A stretch of 64,000 nucleotides of DNA from the NCBI GenBank assembly GCA_014155875.1, contig JACEFZ010027744.1:1-64000 (forward strand). Reading direction: 5' to 3'. The notes under the pieces were generated by a model that was not told the origin of the DNA, made no database searches, and saw only the letters and a program-made list of their open reading frames with translations. Shown one piece after another: positions 12,792 to 60,713 of the stretch. Source of the stretch: Cepaea nemoralis (Eukaryota > Mollusca > Gastropoda > Stylommatophora > Helicidae). Made by a program: the position numbers and the translations under genes. Position 1 is the first letter of the stretch. The number at the start of each line of letters is the position of its first letter.

Positions 12792-44192
<31,401 letters not shown>

Positions 44193-48974: not shown

Positions 48975-49861
48975 TCTCATCTCATCTCATTGGCACCTTG
49001 CCGTCTTGACAGACGATAGTTTGTGCTCTAAAAAGGCATAATAACTTTTAACTATGGCGGTAGCGAGTGTGACTGATAAGGCCAATTTGCGCTGTAAATG
49101 TCCGTTCACAGTGGGTGCATGTGAACACGTGGTCATTTCCACCATCATGCACCATCTTACGTCTCAAACGCTTGGTGTGTGACTTTTCTGCAATAATTTT
49201 CTCCTTTGACTTTATTCCATTTCTGATATTTGCCCTCCACGCAACACGTTCAGCGGCGACTTGCTCCCAATGTGCATTATCAATGCCTGTATCAATCATG
49301 TCCCGCTTACACACATCTTTGTATCGTAGTAGAGGCCGACCCTGAGATCTCTTACCCATCTGTAATTCACCAAAAAAGATATCCTTTGGTATTCTACCAT
49401 CATCCATCCTCCTAAGATGTCCTATCCATCTAAGTCTACGAAGACTGAGCATGGAATAAACTGTCACACAACCTGATCTTTCCAATACTTCAGTATTTGT
49501 GATTTTGTCTTGCCACTTAATACCAAGAATTCTTCGCAGACACCGCATATGAAAGCTGTTTAAATTGTTCTCTTGGTGTGAGTAAGTTGTCCAGGTTTCA
49601 CTGCCATAGAGAAGAGTACTAAGGATACAGGCTTGATAGACAAGGACTTTTGTTTTGGCAGTAAGCTTCCTGTTCTCCCAGACTCTTTTTCTTAACCTGT
49701 TCATTGTTGTTGCTGCCTTACCAATCCGGATGTTGATTTCCTGATCTAGGGATAATTTGCTATTTACCACTGATCCTAGATATGTAAAATGGTCTACTAT
49801 CTCTAGTTCGGCGTCGTCAATAAAGATTGATGGTACCCCATGTGCACCTTGTGACATAATC
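48975..49861 (-). mobile_element. 5'-truncated RTE-like LINE inserted in SINE-A, 13-bp TSD
   Basis: The 887-bp insert lies between direct repeats TGCCCAGGAATCA at 48962-48974 and 49862-49874. Its minus-strand 3' end is (ATGAG)n (in + view TCTCATCTCATCTCATT), the simple-repeat end typical of RTE elements. It carries an uninterrupted coding region, so it is among the youngest LINE copies here. Confidence 0.9.
49048..49861 (-). pseudogene. RTE-like RT C-terminus with terminal C2H2 zinc finger
   Basis: Open from the truncation point to the stop at 49048: AELEIVDHFTYLGSVVNSKL (RT end), RLRKRVWENRKLTAKTKVLV, YGSETWTTYSHQENNLNSFH, RRLRWIGHLRRMDDGRIPKD and GRPLLRYKDVCKRDM. Near the C-terminus is FTCTHCERTFTAQIGLISHT plus RYRH, a C-x2-C-x12-H-x4-H finger. 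The catalytic RT motifs lie in the truncated part. The finger presumably contributes to nucleic-acid binding. Not functional alone. Confidence 0.85.
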
Positions 49862-50022
49862 TGCCCAGGAATCACGAACAGCCAAAATGCCGGGGTTGAC
49901 TGCTACGTCCTGTGAAGGGCATGCAACTAAATCCATGTGCATAGATATTTGAATATTTGCACTTGCCTAAATTGAACACCATTGACTTTAATTGTACATT
50001 TAGGCATGATCCATTTCTTTTA

Positions 50023-53222: not shown

Positions 53223-53541
53223 TGGTGGGACGCAGAGGTGTTTCCAAGGCACCAGGGCCGGGTTATATACTGGCCAAGACCTATTGACGCGTCCTCGTCG
53301 AGCGTCCTGGGCAACAGGTCCCTTCGGGGTCCTGGCTAAAGTCAATAGGATCGCCGATTCCTCCGAAGGTTCACGGGGTGTACTGCTTCGCTCAATTGCT
53401 GTGCGTGGCTGCTTATCCGGGCGTCGTCGATAACGCCGCGTTCTCTCTGCCGTGTTTAACATCACTCAGGGTTGCGTGTTGTTATGTTGTCTGGCGTTGG
53501 TACAGACAACGCGTCGCAACCTCGGATGTGAGACCTTGACA
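53223..53541 (-). repeat. 3' LTR of the Gmr1-like element
   Basis: It begins (minus) TGTCAAGGTCTCACATCC directly after a polypurine tract and is inferred to end ...GCGTCCCACCA at 53223, giving TG...CA ends and 319 bp. It includes a TATATAA box at 53263-53269. The low-coordinate boundary is inferred from TG...CA only. Confidence 0.75.
53263..53269 (-). promoter_or_regulatory. TATA box candidate in the LTR
   Basis: The minus strand reads CAGTATATAACCC about 270 bp into the LTR, a plausible U3 core promoter. The corresponding segment is missing from the 5' LTR. Confidence 0.5.
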
Positions 53542-53560
53542 CTCTCCACACCCCTTTTTC
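53542..53560 (-). other. Polypurine tract
   Basis: The minus strand GAAAAAGGGGTGTGGAGAG lies immediately before the LTR start TGTCAAGG. It is the second-strand priming site of an LTR element and fixes the element's orientation. Confidence 0.75.
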
Positions 53561-54878
53561 ATGAAAGGATTTCCTTTCATGTGCAATATATATCTAGGTG
53601 TTATTAAACATGTCAAAGTCGAACATTATACCTTAACAATTATAATAAATATATACAGGTGAATAGTAAACAATATGTATACACCAATTATGTTGCACTA
53701 TGACGTACAACAGCCAAGTACAATCTATTTAATGGGCATTACCTCGCTGTGACACAGCTAGTCCGGTAGGTATCGGCTAAACTGGCCCCTACCTCACAAC
53801 CAAGAACAAAAATACTAAAATAATCAGGTCAAGCCGTGAGCATCTCCCTCTGAGATAGCTCCATCATCAGACCTCTGTTTAGAGTTTCTAATGAAGGTCA
53901 ACAGTTTTGGCAATATACTGTCCATATCTAAACGACATTACATTGACATGTTATTTATCAAGCACACATGTTAATGGTTACAATACTTATTTACATATCA
54001 CCAACAAGTTAGAGTAATGTCCCCTTGTTATTATACAAAAACTTTAGGAACAATAATTTATCGTCGTTTACAAGACATAAATTACCAATGCAAATTTATT
54101 TCTTAGTGTCATAATTTGATCCTTATTGACAAATGTGCACAAAAAGTCACGTTTGTAAAGAAGCAATCAAGTTACGATGCTGAGATTACATCTTATAAAA
54201 ATCGACATATACAATTCCGTATATGGAAATATTTTAAATCACACTTTAATACAATTGTCATACATTTATAGACTTTTTAGCGTAGTCTGATAACTTTTAA
54301 CTTAATATGCAAAAAATCGGAAGTATACAGCTGTACTATTACATGTGTTGTGGTGTCATTCATACAACGTTGGTCCGTTCTGGATGGATCTTATATAAAC
54401 GGAGTAGTAGTTGTTACTATCAGCTGTTGGATCGTCTCTTCCGCTTTCTGCTCGGATTGTACTGTCGCAGTCATCTTTCGTACCTTGTTAAAACGTCTTG
54501 GACACCTCGGTCTGGATACCTTCAGGATTACCTCACGTTGTAGTGGCTTGGTAAGTTCCTGGATCCTGTAGTGTTGTCCAGTGACACTTCTCTGTAGTGT
54601 CCGGTTTTTACAATATTTATATATTTACAATAATAATTACATTCTTTCTCATATCTCACAGTTATCCAACACATTAGTTTACATAATACTGATTCCATTC
54701 TTTCCCATATCTCACAATTATACACGCATTCATTCGCATGATAATACTAAGAATCGCAATATGTACATAAGTTATATACATTGGGAGATATAATCTACCC
54801 CATCACAATGGTGTACACAGCGTTACTGACACATTGTCCCAATTGGCTGTGGTACTGAGCACTATCTACGTTGCAGTT
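53561..54878 (-). other. 3' non-coding region of the Gmr1-like element
   Basis: About 1.3 kb between the RNase H stop and the purine tract. No envelope-like frame is seen. Near 54640-54720 a motif (TTACATTCTTTCTCATATCTCACA) is duplicated in degenerate form. Confidence 0.6.
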
Positions 54879-56325
54879 TTATACACCCTCTGCACTGTGC
54901 TCTGGTGTTGACTGGGTATTAGGTTCGTCGTATGGACATCTCGACAAGAGATCTGCAAGACAGTTTTGTGAACCCTTTATATGGTTAATATCATAGCTAT
55001 AGTCCTGCAGAAGAAGGGACCATCTTGCCACCTTGCTGTTACTAGGCGTTCCTCTGGTAACAATTGTCAGCGGGCTATTATCTGTCTCAATAATGAAATG
55101 TTTGCGTAACAAAAATCTAGAAAGTTTACGTACCAAAAATACCATGGCAAGAGCCTCGAGTTCCGGTGTACTGTAATTTCGTTCGCTGGTGTTCAGTTTT
55201 CGAGAGACGTAGTATACTGGGTACAAGATTTGGTCGTATTCTTGGAGAAGCACACCTCCAATGGCTACGGAGCTCGCATCACATCTTAGTCTAAAAGTAA
55301 TATTCAAATTTGGCAATTTCAGAATAGGTGATTTAGAAAAATATGACAGAATCTTATTAAATGCTGGCCTTAAACATTCACTGTTTACAATCACATTGGG
55401 GTGTTTATTTGTTAGTAGATCAGTGAAACATTTGGTCAATTCAGCAAAATGAGGAATAAACTGTCTATAATAGTTTAAAAGACCTAACACACTTCGCAAC
55501 TGTTTCTTAGTTGTCGGAAGCGACAATTTCAAAATTCTGGACATGATGTTATCGTCAGTTGATATAAGCCATTTGAGATCTTATAGCCCTAAAATGAAAT
55601 TTCCTGAAAGGCTATATCAACTTTGGAAGGTTTTACAGTCAGTCCATGATGTCTAATCCTGTCAAATGTCTGCTGTAGTGCTGTTATGTGCTCTGTCATG
55701 TCCTTTGTGTGTATGCAAATGTCGTCCATGTACCAAATGATGTTAGCAATGTCTGTCAAAAGAATTCTTGTCATTCTGACGAAGGTAGCTGGTGCATTGA
55801 CTAATCCGTATAAACGTATAAACCCCACGGTGTGGCAAATGCAGTCAGATGTATACTATCAGGATGTACAGCTATCTGCCAGTAGCCTTTTGTCATGTCA
55901 AGTTTAGTAAAATAACGTGAGTCAGATAGTTCAGTCAGGATGTCTTCACAGTTGCTCATTGGTTCTAAATCCAACTGTGTAATGCTGTTGAGTTTACGAT
56001 AGTCCACACAAAGTCTAAAAGTGTTGTCCTTTTTGCGTACTAACACTATTGGTGAACAGAAATGAGATTGTGAACGTCGAATGATATGATTTGCTTCTAA
56101 ATCAATGATTTCTTGATGAAGTTTTTCTTTATAGTGTATAGGGATGGAATATGGTCTACACTTAATAGGAACGTCAGATGTTAAGATGATTTGGTGTTGC
56201 ACTAAATCTGTCTGTCCTGGGCTGTCAGAAAAGATCGTCCTGTATTCTTGTATCAGTTGTCTGCAACTGTCAGTCTGTATCTGAGTCAGTTTAGGATTTA
56301 CCTTAATGTCCTGTAAGTTGGTCAC
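54879..56325 (-). pseudogene. Gmr1-like RT and RNase H (frameshifted)
   Basis: RT: CRPYSIPIHYKEKLHQEI, SPIVLVRKKDNTFRLCVDYR, YFTKLDMTKGYWQI (motif A), GLVNAPATFVRM (motif B) and IIWYMDDICIHT (motif C, YMDD). RNase H: LRCDASSVAIGGVLLQEYDQ (Asp), STPELEALAMVFLVRKL (Glu), IIETDNSPLT (Asp), ending QNCLADLLSRC. Breaks are a frame change near 55815 and a one-base deletion-type stop near 55595. The frame also changes by one at the integrase junction (56322-56325). The closest relatives are Ty3/gypsy pols. The C-terminus after RNase H is short and no second integrase follows. Confidence 0.9.
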
Positions 56326-57301
56326 GTGTCAAGAACTGGTGTCGGTATCTCGTTCGTGTCGTTGTCGTCCGTCTGGTCCACTATGGAGGTGCTTGCTGCA
56401 GTCTCTACTTGTTCGTCTTGCCTGTGGTGATATGGTTTGAGCATGTTAATATGGAAAATTTTATGTTTGTCCCTAACTGCAATCTCGTAATCTACCGTCG
56501 AAATTTGTCGTAGTACTTTGAACAGTCCTTGCCATGAGTCAGTTAGGAGATGTCTATCACTTGGCACAAGAAGAAGAACGTCCTGTCCTGGCGTCAGTGT
56601 AATAGTTCTATTTCCTCTGTTAGCATATTGTCGGTAAATAGCTCCTGATTTTTGGAGAGCTTCTTTAGCTAACATACATGATTTCATAATTCTATCACGC
56701 AATGCTGTTACATGTTCATATGGTGAAATGGGTATAGACAAAGTTGTACTTTCAGTCAACATGGAGTGGTACATTACTAATGAGGAGTGAGTGAAATTGG
56801 TATTATGGCTCCCTAACTTAGTTCTAATATGGGAACAGACTTCCCTGATGTCTTTGGAAGTTATGGTTTTAGAAGGACTCGCTTCTGGCGAAATTTAGTA
56901 CCTCTCGATGTTATGTGGTCAAGAGGATCAATTCTGTCGACAGAGATATGTTTGAAAGGTCTGCTTGTTGAATCTGTTAATTGCAGTTCAGCTTGCGAGT
57001 GTTTCTTCTTTTTCACAAGCTTATGGCAGATGTCACAACTTCTGCAATACCGTTTGGTATCACTGCGAAACTTAGGCCAATAGAATTGAGTAAGTAATCT
57101 TGCTCTTGTTTTAGCATCAGCTCTATGCCCTGCGAAGGGTATGTCATGTGCTAGCTTTAATGCTTGATTGCGGTTTTCTGCAGGTAGCACCGTTTGTTCT
57201 GTAGTGCTAGAACCTTTGGTATAGTACCGTGTCAGAATTCCGTTTTTCAGAGCAAAATACCATTTAGCATTCTTTGCTACTCGTGGCTTTTGGCCTATAA
57301 G
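56322..57301 (-). pseudogene. Integrase with deleted catalytic core
   Basis: Zinc-binding domain: LAHDIPFAGHRADAKTRARL then YCRSCDICHKLV, giving H-x6-H and a C-x2-C. The core starts at RPFKHISVDRIDPLD (first catalytic Asp), then frame and sequence jump. Only a short FTSKD-like remnant (TITSKDIREVCSH) appears before a C-terminal module with LTPGQDVLLLVPSDRH, SWQGLFKVLRQISTVDYEIA and FHINMLKPYHH (GPY/F-type). The second Asp and the Glu are missing, so strand transfer is impossible from this copy. A full core would need roughly 130 more residues. It lies between protease and RT. Confidence 0.85.
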
Positions 57302-59479
57302 TTAAAAATACTTTTGCAGAGATCGATCGGCTTTTTGAGATGTTATAAACGTCTCCCTAGTTGTATCAGGAGATGTTACAACTGGACTTACTCGTTGTAA
57401 AGCCTCTGTCTGATCGATTCGATCTTGCATCTGTGCAGTAGATCTAGTTACTGCATTAACTTCATTACAACGATCATTCTCATCACACATTGATGTTACA
57501 TTCACACAATTACATGTATGTTCTGGCGTAGCCAGGTTGGTATTTGTACATTCATTTACAGGTGGTAATACATCATGAATGGTGATTGGTGATGAAGGTG
57601 AAATGGTAGTATCAATATTACAACTGACAGTTGATGTAATACTGTCATATGGCATGTCATTCACTTCAGGAAGGTTTCCAATGATAACATCGCAGCAAGG
57701 ATTGGTTAATGCTGCGCATTTAACCTTTCCTGTAAGGAATGGTGTAGTTATATATGCCCATGCAAGTGGATATTTCTCTATGTTCCCTGAGAACGTCCTG
57801 CATGTGACATATTTACCACTATATTGTGCTGGTAAAATGTAATCTCTCTTTACACCAATGAGAGTACTGCCGCTATCACGCAAAACTGTGGCAGCTCTAC
57901 CATTAACATACCCCTGGTGGATGTTTAGGTTACCTTTGGAGTTTACTACAGAATTGGCCTCCTCACTGGTAACAGGTATAGAATGGCCGCATGTTAACAC
58001 GCCATCCTCATGAAATTGATCACAAATGGTACATTTTTCCTGATGGAACACCTCAATGGAATGTGCTGAGTTTACTGGGTGATCTTGTACACTTTCATCA
58101 TCTGACGACGAACTGTCAAACATGGCTGCATTAGCCTTTTTGGTCATTGACTTGCCTTTACAATCTTTACGCCAGTAACCATAAGCTTTACAAAGGTAAC
58201 ATTTGGTAACTTTTCTATAGTTCTTCCTTTCTCTATCTTGCTTAGAAATGTAATTATGCAAGTACGTAGTGTACCCAGGGTGTTGGTCGCATATATCATT
58301 CTCATTGTGTTTATAATTGCAATATTTGCACTGATACAATTTCTCTGCAGCTTGTTTATAAGGTCTTTGTTTGATATTTGACCCTGCCTGATATTTGCCA
58401 TATGTAGCTGCTGCTACAAAGTCTGTGCTGGTCAGACTACTAGAGAAACAATGCTTATTGGCTGCAAAATAACCAGAGCCACGACTTTCAATCTGTTGAA
58501 CACTTTCACACTGACATTCCAACAAAAATTTCGAAAAGGAGGGTGGGAGAGATGCGATAATCTTATCTCTCAACATAAGATCAACTAATTTGTCATAAAT
58601 TCCATTTACTTTGGCTGCTGACAGCCATTTAGAAAAGATATTTTGAATTTCTGAGATGTAATCAGAGAACGTGTGTGTTGGCTTAGGAGACAACTTCCTA
58701 AACTGTTCTCTATAACCTGATTCATCTAGCAAAAAGTGTGACATAATTTTTGCTTTAATGTAAAGATAATCTTCTTTCAGGTCATTTGGGATCGACTCTA
58801 TGACTTTAAGAGGTTCCCCAGAAAGACTTCTTACATATACTATCCCCCATTCAGGTTTTGGGATTTTGTAATGAGCCATAACAAATTCAAAATTTTGAGT
58901 GAATGCTGCTATGCAATCACCTGTGTTGTAACTTCTGATCAGACCTTGGTACTTTTTATGAGGTTGATCTTTGTTTGTTTCTCTATTCACTTTATCTTTA
59001 GAACATTCAGCTTTTAGCTGTTCAATTTTCAGTTGTGTTTCTTGCTCTTCTCTCTTACTTTGGGCTAAGATCTCAGCTTGCCTCACTGCCGCTTCTGACT
59101 GTTTTAGAGCAGCTTCTGATTGTGCTTGTTGAAGCTTTAGAGCAGCTTCTGTTTGTGCTTGTTGAAGCTTTAAAGCAGCTTCTGAGTCTGCCTCTTTACT
59201 TTTCAGAGCAGCTTCTGATTGCTTTAGAGCAGCTTCTGCTTGTGCCTGCTGAAGCTTTAAAGCAGCGTCTGAGTCTGCCTCTTTACTCTTTAACGCCCTT
59301 TCGGCCGCTTTCTCATCCCTCTCACTAATTTGCTCTTGCTTCAAAAGATATTCTGCATATTTACTTTCACTCCATGTTCTCAATCCCTCACCAGACATAT
59401 TCATTTTTAAACCCATTTCAATGAAATCGTTCAAAGAAGACATGATGAACAATAGGTATGATGGAATAAATATAAACAC
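57302..59479 (-). CDS. Gag-protease polyprotein of the Gmr1-like element
   Basis: 725 residues; MSSLNDFIEMG, the second Met (codon 13), is the likelier start. Residues about 53-160: an Ala/Gln/Glu heptad coil with repeated SEAALKLQQAQ. About 240-326: a SCAN-like capsid C-terminal domain (LLDESGYREQFRKLSPKPTH, then KIIASLPPSFSKFLLECQ). About 385-440: Cys/His clusters QCKYCNYKHNENDICDQH and CYLCKAYGYWRKDC, the latter a knuckle with Tyr at the usual His. About residue 535: VLRDSGSTLIG, the aspartic protease active site (DSG). About residue 590: CDVIIGNLP. A TAA at 57304-57302 stops translation, and the same frame stays open into integrase beyond it. The ORF is otherwise intact. Confidence 0.88.
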   Translation of the reverse strand: MFIFIPSYLLFIMSSLNDFIEMGLKMNMSGEGLRTWSESKYAEYLLKQEQISERDEKAAERALKSKEADSDAALKLQQAQAEAALKQSEAALKSKEADSEAALKLQQAQTEAALKLQQAQSEAALKQSEAAVRQAEILAQSKREEQETQLKIEQLKAECSKDKVNRETNKDQPHKKYQGLIRSYNTGDCIAAFTQNFEFVMAHYKIPKPEWGIVYVRSLSGEPLKVIESIPNDLKEDYLYIKAKIMSHFLLDESGYREQFRKLSPKPTHTFSDYISEIQNIFSKWLSAAKVNGIYDKLVDLMLRDKIIASLPPSFSKFLLECQCESVQQIESRGSGYFAANKHCFSSSLTSTDFVAAATYGKYQAGSNIKQRPYKQAAEKLYQCKYCNYKHNENDICDQHPGYTTYLHNYISKQDRERKNYRKVTKCYLCKAYGYWRKDCKGKSMTKKANAAMFDSSSSDDESVQDHPVNSAHSIEVFHQEKCTICDQFHEDGVLTCGHSIPVTSEEANSVVNSKGNLNIHQGYVNGRAATVLRDSGSTLIGVKRDYILPAQYSGKYVTCRTFSGNIEKYPLAWAYITTPFLTGKVKCAALTNPCCDVIIGNLPEVNDMPYDSITSTVSCNIDTTISPSSPITIHDVLPPVNECTNTNLATPEHTCNCVNVTSMCDENDRCNEVNAVTRSTAQMQDRIDQTEALQRVSPVVTSPDTTRETFITSQKADRSLQKYF

Positions 59480-60537
59480 AATTACTTATGATGTTAGTAA
59501 GTTACAAATATTTATAGCACAGTTAATGTCTAAAGCCAGACTAACGAAAGTATAAAGAGAGATGACAAAAAATTTATACTCAAGTAATCCTTGGGTAATG
59601 TGCTGTTCAGTGGTGCTCGAAATCACACTGGAACGTCTTTCGGGTTGACGCACAAAAAATTTTTGAAGTTCACCAGACTCAGGTAAAGTTGACACAAAAA
59701 CCCTGTACTTTTTAAACTAAACAAAATTAGCACGTTTGTAAATGTATGGTGTGTGTAATGTAACTGACGTCTGTAAAGGTTTGTATGCTGTCAAGTATTA
59801 TTGTTAGTCGTTACCACAATCAACAACTTTCACGCTCACACTAACCCTACTCAATGACATTCAAGGGCGCGGCCGCCATTTTGGATTTTAGGTACAAAAT
59901 TTGTTGAATTTAGTGATAAGTCTGAAGACGCCTCGGTTGGCTTCAAATAATATCTTCACACTTATAATTTAATTAAATCAACTCTATTTATTTGTTACTT
60001 TACCTTAATTTATGACTTGCGCACGTCTATCGGCATGTTCACATTCGCTTCCCTCTCGGACAAAAAAATTTACAAGTTCGCATTTGGTTCAAAACCCGGA
60101 CGAAAGCTACCACGTTCGCACTTGTCAGAGTCGTGCGTGGAGCAAGACAAGTCGCTCGTTTTCTGGCAAGTGTGAAGCAATATCAAACCATCAAATCACA
60201 CGAAGTGAATATCCGAAAGTATTATTCACACGCTTTATTTACGCGCTGCATTTATTATCGCACAAACATCGCGCAATGACAATCCATAGCAATCATTACA
60301 GCATTAACAATATCACTACAATACATAATAATACATGTAAGCAAGAAACATCTCACTTACAAGTCAAACTCTTCAAGCATGCGAACCAGTCTCCCACTGT
60401 CATACAGGCTAGCTCTCAAGGCAGATTCAAACACTTCTCGCATACCCATGCGACCTCTCCATTCAACAACCTAAACCCGTCTGCCAGTTCTGGCGTTCGA
60501 CACGCTACACGCTCACGTCAGCTGGTGTGACCCCTGC
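59480..60537 (-). other. 5' leader region of the Gmr1-like element
   Basis: About 1 kb between gag and the partial 5' LTR. The primer-binding site expected next to the LTR is not recognisable. On the + strand CTGGTGTGACCCCTGC at the junction resembles a tRNA-Trp-type PBS but in the wrong orientation. Deletion of the LTR 3' half could explain its absence. Confidence 0.5.
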
Positions 60538-60713
60538 AAGGTTCACGGGGTGTACTGCTTCGCTCAATTGCTGTGCGTGGCTGCTTATCCGGGCGTCGTC
60601 GATAACGCCGCGTTCTCTCTGCCGTGTTTAACATCACTCAGGGTTGCGTGTTGTTATGTTGTCTGGCGTTGGTACAGACAACGCGTCGCAACCTCGGATG
60701 TGAGACCTTGACA
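60538..60713 (-). repeat. Partial 5' LTR of the Gmr1-like element
   Basis: 176 bp identical to 53366-53541, from TGTCAAGG inward. The remaining roughly 143 bp of the 3' LTR, including the TATA box, have no counterpart. Confidence 0.88.

Follow-up and report, generated by a model that had tools for sequence, protein, structure and literature searches.

Integrase ahead of reverse transcriptase in a high-copy Ty3/gypsy retrotransposon family of Cepaea nemoralis, very probably of the Gmr1 type

In the portions available to us of PMC8220671, PMC6238403, and PMC2774666, all citing Goodwin and Poulter 2002, the Gmr1 clade is characterised by an order in which integrase precedes reverse transcriptase (RT). 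According to the excerpts of the papers that followed, deuterostomes were the first hosts from which this integrase-first lineage was described, with crustaceans (PMC3587641) and an annelid (PMC8220671) being added later, and Gmr1-like elements also being reported, in the accessible text, from tetraodontiform fish (PMC11117352) and frogs (PMC4131045). The same partial texts report the SCAN domain for Gmr elements (PMC4131045, PMC3424704), and the frog survey, so far as its available part goes, met it among the Gmr elements alone, in more than half of them (PMC4131045). A survey of molluscs lists 21 gypsy clades, and Gmr1 is absent from that list in the extract at hand (PMC6238403); in the literature searched, part of it available as extracts, we found no description of a Gmr1-type element in a mollusc.

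The window, as we call the whole stretch of 64,000 nucleotides that was analysed, carries on its minus strand an element that spans 53366-60713, as delimited by comparing its LTRs with those of other copies in the genome (Table 1). The preliminary description had given it as 53223..60713, of which the 60713 end stands, while 53223-53365 no longer matches the 5' LTR and is left out of the element, the true end being 53366 because the 3' LTR stops early. Two copies have a 3' LTR cut in this manner, that of the window and L060 (about 180 bp), at LTR positions that are near each other and not identical. The minus-strand order first proposed for the window copy, namely gag, DSG protease, integrase zinc-binding domain, integrase C-terminal module, RT with YMDD, and RNase H, agrees with both the open reading frame and Pfam scans, with the Pfam scan of the protease stretch giving no match to a protease family. 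The window gag-protease pieces are 84-92% identical in amino acids to the gag-protease part of four longer copies in the same genome (L039-L042). By eye, no TGG stands directly after the 5' LTR as a primer-binding site. A conserved stretch about 10 nt further inside the element, at 60080-60121 in the window and also in L043-L061, resembles by eye the complement of a tRNA T-arm. A short antisense frame of about 70-98 aa, at 54307-54571 (+) in the window, is common to L040 and L042, a sharing that recent common descent alone may explain, and the longest antisense frame of the 3' stretch is one of 146 aa in L041. Elsewhere in the window, frames at 1-2653, 35089-35568, and 49051-49902 resemble by eye fragments of LINE RT, endonuclease, and RNase H, and tandem arrays lie at 13109-14734 (a 48-bp unit, 34 times), 24117-25575 (a 68-74-bp unit, 20 times), and 37694-39279 (a 40-bp unit, 40 times).

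Table 1. Parts of the integrase-first element in the window, in minus-strand order
Feature	Position	Strand	Basis and remarks
5' LTR	60122..60713	-	about 592 bp, starts TGTCA; 89.7% identical to the 582-bp 3' LTR of copy L041 (8476-9057)
Leader, LTR to gag	59480..60121	-	sequence reading and ORF start
gag-protease open frame	57302..59479	-	725 aa; N-terminal coiled repeats
SCAN-like stretch in capsid	58490..58714	-	PF02023 E 0.003, 17.8 bits; curated cut-off 27
Protease active-site triad DSG	57869..57877	-	motif reading
Integrase zinc-binding domain (H2C2)	57020..57184	-	PF17921 E 1.1e-16; within 57190-56861
Integrase catalytic core remnant	56775..57019	-	two gaps relative to L041; mostly deleted
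Integrase core end and C-terminal module	56322..56774	-	PF24626 4e-6 and PF22938 1.8e-5, each slightly below its cut-off
Reverse transcriptase, YMDD	55589..56325	-	two frames; PF00078 1.9e-9 and 3.3e-13
RT end and RNase H	54879..55544	-	PF17917 1e-29, PF17919 2.9e-26
3' stretch, about 1.3 kb	53542..54878	-	short open frames only; purine-rich tract AAAAAGGGGTGTGGAGAG adjoins the LTR
3' LTR, first 176 bp only	53366..53541	-	100% identical to 60538-60713

We are highly confident that this is a dead member of a high-copy, recently active family of integrase-first (Gmr1-type) Ty3/gypsy LTR retrotransposons, and the case for a family that is new within the known integrase-first gypsy kind is well supported. 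The Gmr1-like identity already suggested in the preliminary description is supported by the domain order together with the gypsy-type enzymes; what speaks against it is a SCAN score below the Pfam cut-off, the lack of a clear primer-binding site, and the database protein P0166, in which a truncated RT, cut before its active site, precedes integrase.

Among database proteins, labelled for domain order by their BLAST matches to pieces of L041, the integrase query gave 1320 matches, and the 120 listed comprise 49 integrase-first proteins, 70 with integrase only and no RT, and P0166 as the single integrase-last one. The query spanning the integrase-RT junction, which favours proteins having that junction, gave 100 integrase-first proteins, 20 with RT only, and none with integrase last among the 120 listed of 335 matches. 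The RNase H piece gave 10 matches, nine with RT only and one integrase-last (P0005), and scans of IMG/VR showed no relatives. The named hosts of the integrase-first matches listed include the molluscs Physella (snail), Ruditapes (clam), and Mytilus (mussel), besides Lineus, Apostichopus, a crinoid, sole, medaka, frogs, sea turtles, and sponges, one of the sponge hosts being presumed from the protein prefix Em. Snails are the nearest named relatives of the window family among the matches listed. Near relatives with integrase first are P0011, P0131 from the snail Physella acuta, and P0012 (ENA), the last of which is 68% identical in the integrase core (54% over a partial RT). P0046 from the land snail Bradybaena similaris (49% in RT) has RT and RNase H only. 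All four are too distant to belong to the same family as the window element.

The careful RT tree was built from 33 rows hand-picked from 250 proteins, and the RT trees contained no copia RT. Two groups were named A and B after inspection of an earlier careful tree: group A has 11 rows (support 93/84), seven of them with a named host (frogs, turtles, sole, and sponges), and group B has 17 rows including the window family (99/98), with clam, sea cucumber, crinoid, and snail as the named hosts and three rows that are RT only. A and B stand together against Ty3, P0121, P0123, P0127, and P0130 at 94/82, and did so at 91/78 in that earlier tree. The closest partner of the window family in the RT tree is P0012 (95/85), followed by P0011 and the snail Bradybaena; a quick integrase tree, where Ty3 has a very long branch, joins the family to P0012 (99) and then to the snail Physella (97). 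The window family thereby appears to sit among the integrase-first animal elements, beside the vertebrate/sponge subgroup. Its earlier portrayal as a possible distinct lineage fits in part, its subgroup among the integrase-first animal elements being apart from the one with fish, frogs, and turtles.

It is also conceivable, albeit unlikely in our judgement, that the integrase-first order had a second, independent origin in an invertebrate gypsy lineage which is not next of kin to the vertebrate Gmr1. The separation of the two well-supported groups would agree with this, as would two further results: placing B with the four outlying RTs was not rejected (p-AU 0.32), and a quick tree of 95 rows sets P0121, P0123, P0127, and P0130 between the vertebrate/sponge groups and that of the window. 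Against a second origin, A and B come out joined, apart from Ty3 and these four RTs, in the best careful trees. Both readings are weakened by the naming of the groups after the trees had been seen and by the shortness of three of the four outlying proteins, P0121 and P0130 beginning at RT and P0127 having 98 residues before it. In P0123, the 350 residues that precede RT contain no integrase, and the protease match among them is weak (E 0.047) and below the cut-off. The gag also looks SCAN-like, as in Gmr elements, which likewise argues against a second origin, although the PF02023 match stays below the curated cut-off in the window copy as well as in L041 (E 0.0028) and L040 (E 0.0073); a structure model of the capsid, at pLDDT 44, is too poor to use. 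A single origin of the integrase-first order is therefore favoured rather than demonstrated, since the grouping of B with the four RTs was not rejected and these RTs lie inside in the quick tree. If the order had arisen once in the vertebrate/sponge group and a second time, independently, in a large group of invertebrate elements that includes the window family, moving integrase ahead of RT would be a step that evolution can repeat, and no one-off accident.

The reading as a Gmr1-type family draws directly on the other copies in the genome. With the RNase H piece as query, at least 150 places including the window were found at 95% amino acid identity or more in the 3.47-Gb genome, with the best 150 of 42513 first-look candidates being scored. 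The 29 best other copies, which are the top-scoring rows and not a random sample, were read with 1.5 kb on either side, the downstream flank ending within the 3' LTR or soon beyond; integrase is upstream of RT in 27 of them, downstream in none, and was not found in two (L015 and L020). The four longer copies, L039-L042, are stretches taken from an initial 20 and partly picked for long frames, and all four have the order gag, protease, integrase, RT, and RNase H. In L040 and L041, everything from gag to RNase H lies in a single open frame (1633 and 1601 aa, respectively), while the frame of L039 (1566 aa) starts inside gag and that of L042 is broken in gag. Pfam finds H2C2 in both L040 and L041, with the integrase core between the zinc finger and the C-terminal module (PF00665, 1.9e-17 and 4.1e-17); for the module itself, L041 passes PF24626 and PF22938, and L040 passes PF22938 with PF24626 just under. 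By motif reading, the L041 integrase has D-x59-D-x35-E, H2C2, and GPY/F.

A genome search for copies and their domain order had been proposed in the preliminary description; integrase after RNase H was found in none of the 29 partial and none of the four longer relatives, nor was any integrase found downstream of RNase H in the 3' stretch of the window copy. This within-genome comparison covers the integrase-first family alone, since the top RVT_1 matches of the genome (L001-L008) matched none of the gypsy pieces and could not serve as controls. Integrase between protease and a Ty3/gypsy RT, as originally claimed for the window copy, is thus common property of the family, and the order is not local to the window copy, because 27 of 29 relatives and all four longer copies share it. 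Accordingly, the notion of a standard gypsy element rearranged in the window copy or at its locus alone, which the deletions and the frame break of that copy could suggest, is refuted by the shared order, with the other two relatives showing no integrase and two of the longer copies having everything in one frame, and we give it virtually no credence.

The enzymes themselves are of the gypsy type. Ty3 is the best solved relative of the RT, at E 1e-70, and the integrase matches it at E 1e-32 (PDB 7q5b). The RT and RNase H families found by Pfam are PF00078, PF17917, and PF17919, with no copia-type RT recognised. GPY/F is a hallmark of the integrases of gypsy elements and retroviruses. In Ty1/copia elements integrase normally comes before RT, and such an element would account for the domain order, but RT, RNase H, and integrase all match gypsy-type families and Ty3 best, and since the RT is Ty3/gypsy-type and the integrase carries GPY/F, a copia identity is rejected as exceedingly improbable.

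The family has the features of an LTR retrotransposon: 11 full pairs of LTRs with TG..CA ends come from L040-L042 and eight of ten further loci, and most of them have a short target-site duplication, which by eye is of 5 bp in six pairs and of 4 bp in two, with none in three. These pairs are 97.2-99.7% identical, with the ten further loci leaning to young copies because they were chosen for long open frames. No LTR pair was found for L039 or L045/L046, and L059/L060 match over 180 bp only. For the six pairs among L039-L042, dN/dS is 0.13-0.26 in integrase and 0.04-0.08 in RT-RNase H, and the median for the RNase H piece is 0.09 (435 pairs from 30 loci including the window). Integrase and RT are under purifying selection, and the family has multiplied recently with its gag-pol in working order.

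The window copy, in contrast with such a working gag-pol, is broken: its gag-protease frame is followed by a stop, its integrase core has suffered two deletions, its RT frame is interrupted, and its 3' LTR is cut. Because the core is mostly deleted, only the zinc finger and the C-terminal module of its integrase are plain, as the preliminary description had it. Both core gaps are the same in L014, on another contig, which is 98.5% identical to the window copy over 2.3 kb. It is possible that the two represent a subfamily without a working integrase; either core-less copies would have spread helped by others, or both derive from one duplicated segment.

Most likely, the family would follow the ordinary LTR retrotransposon cycle of transcript, Gag particle, reverse transcription, and integration by a DDE integrase, with only the order within the polyprotein being unusual. 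Gag, protease, integrase, RT, and RNase H would be made as one chain, and because they are made in that order, integrase would have to be released from between protease and RT, with cleavage and integration presumably taking the usual route. The window copy, having lost most of its integrase core, would have been mobilised only by the enzymes of other copies.

In comparison with known systems, the likeness to the Gmr1 lineage, beside which the family is set by published descriptions, lies in the same integrase before a gypsy-type RT and, weakly, in a gag that looks SCAN-like. The fish Gmr1 entry in the available part of PMC11117352 has 1634 aa, and the gag-pol of the window family is likewise one frame of about 1600 aa; on the other hand, that entry, at 6465 bp with an LTR of 518, leaves about 0.5 kb untranslated, compared with the 3' stretch of about 1.3 kb in the window family. 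The latter also differs in belonging to a subgroup beside the vertebrate/sponge one. Crustacean GyRex4 and others (PMC3587641), together with annelid LGF3 (PMC8220671), have protostome hosts and are Gmr1-like according to their authors, in the excerpts available, the likeness to our family being one of description. Given that snail, clam, and mussel proteins were found, the integrase-first kind may be wider in molluscs than the accessible part of PMC6238403 records, some of the MolGy clades named there may be the same kind under another name, and the group may be under-recognised in invertebrates. Ty3 of yeast has homologous RT and integrase, but with RT at 562-1015 and integrase after it, at 1088-1452 (PDB 7q5b). 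What the snail would add to the Gmr1 lineage is an abundant and recently active family.
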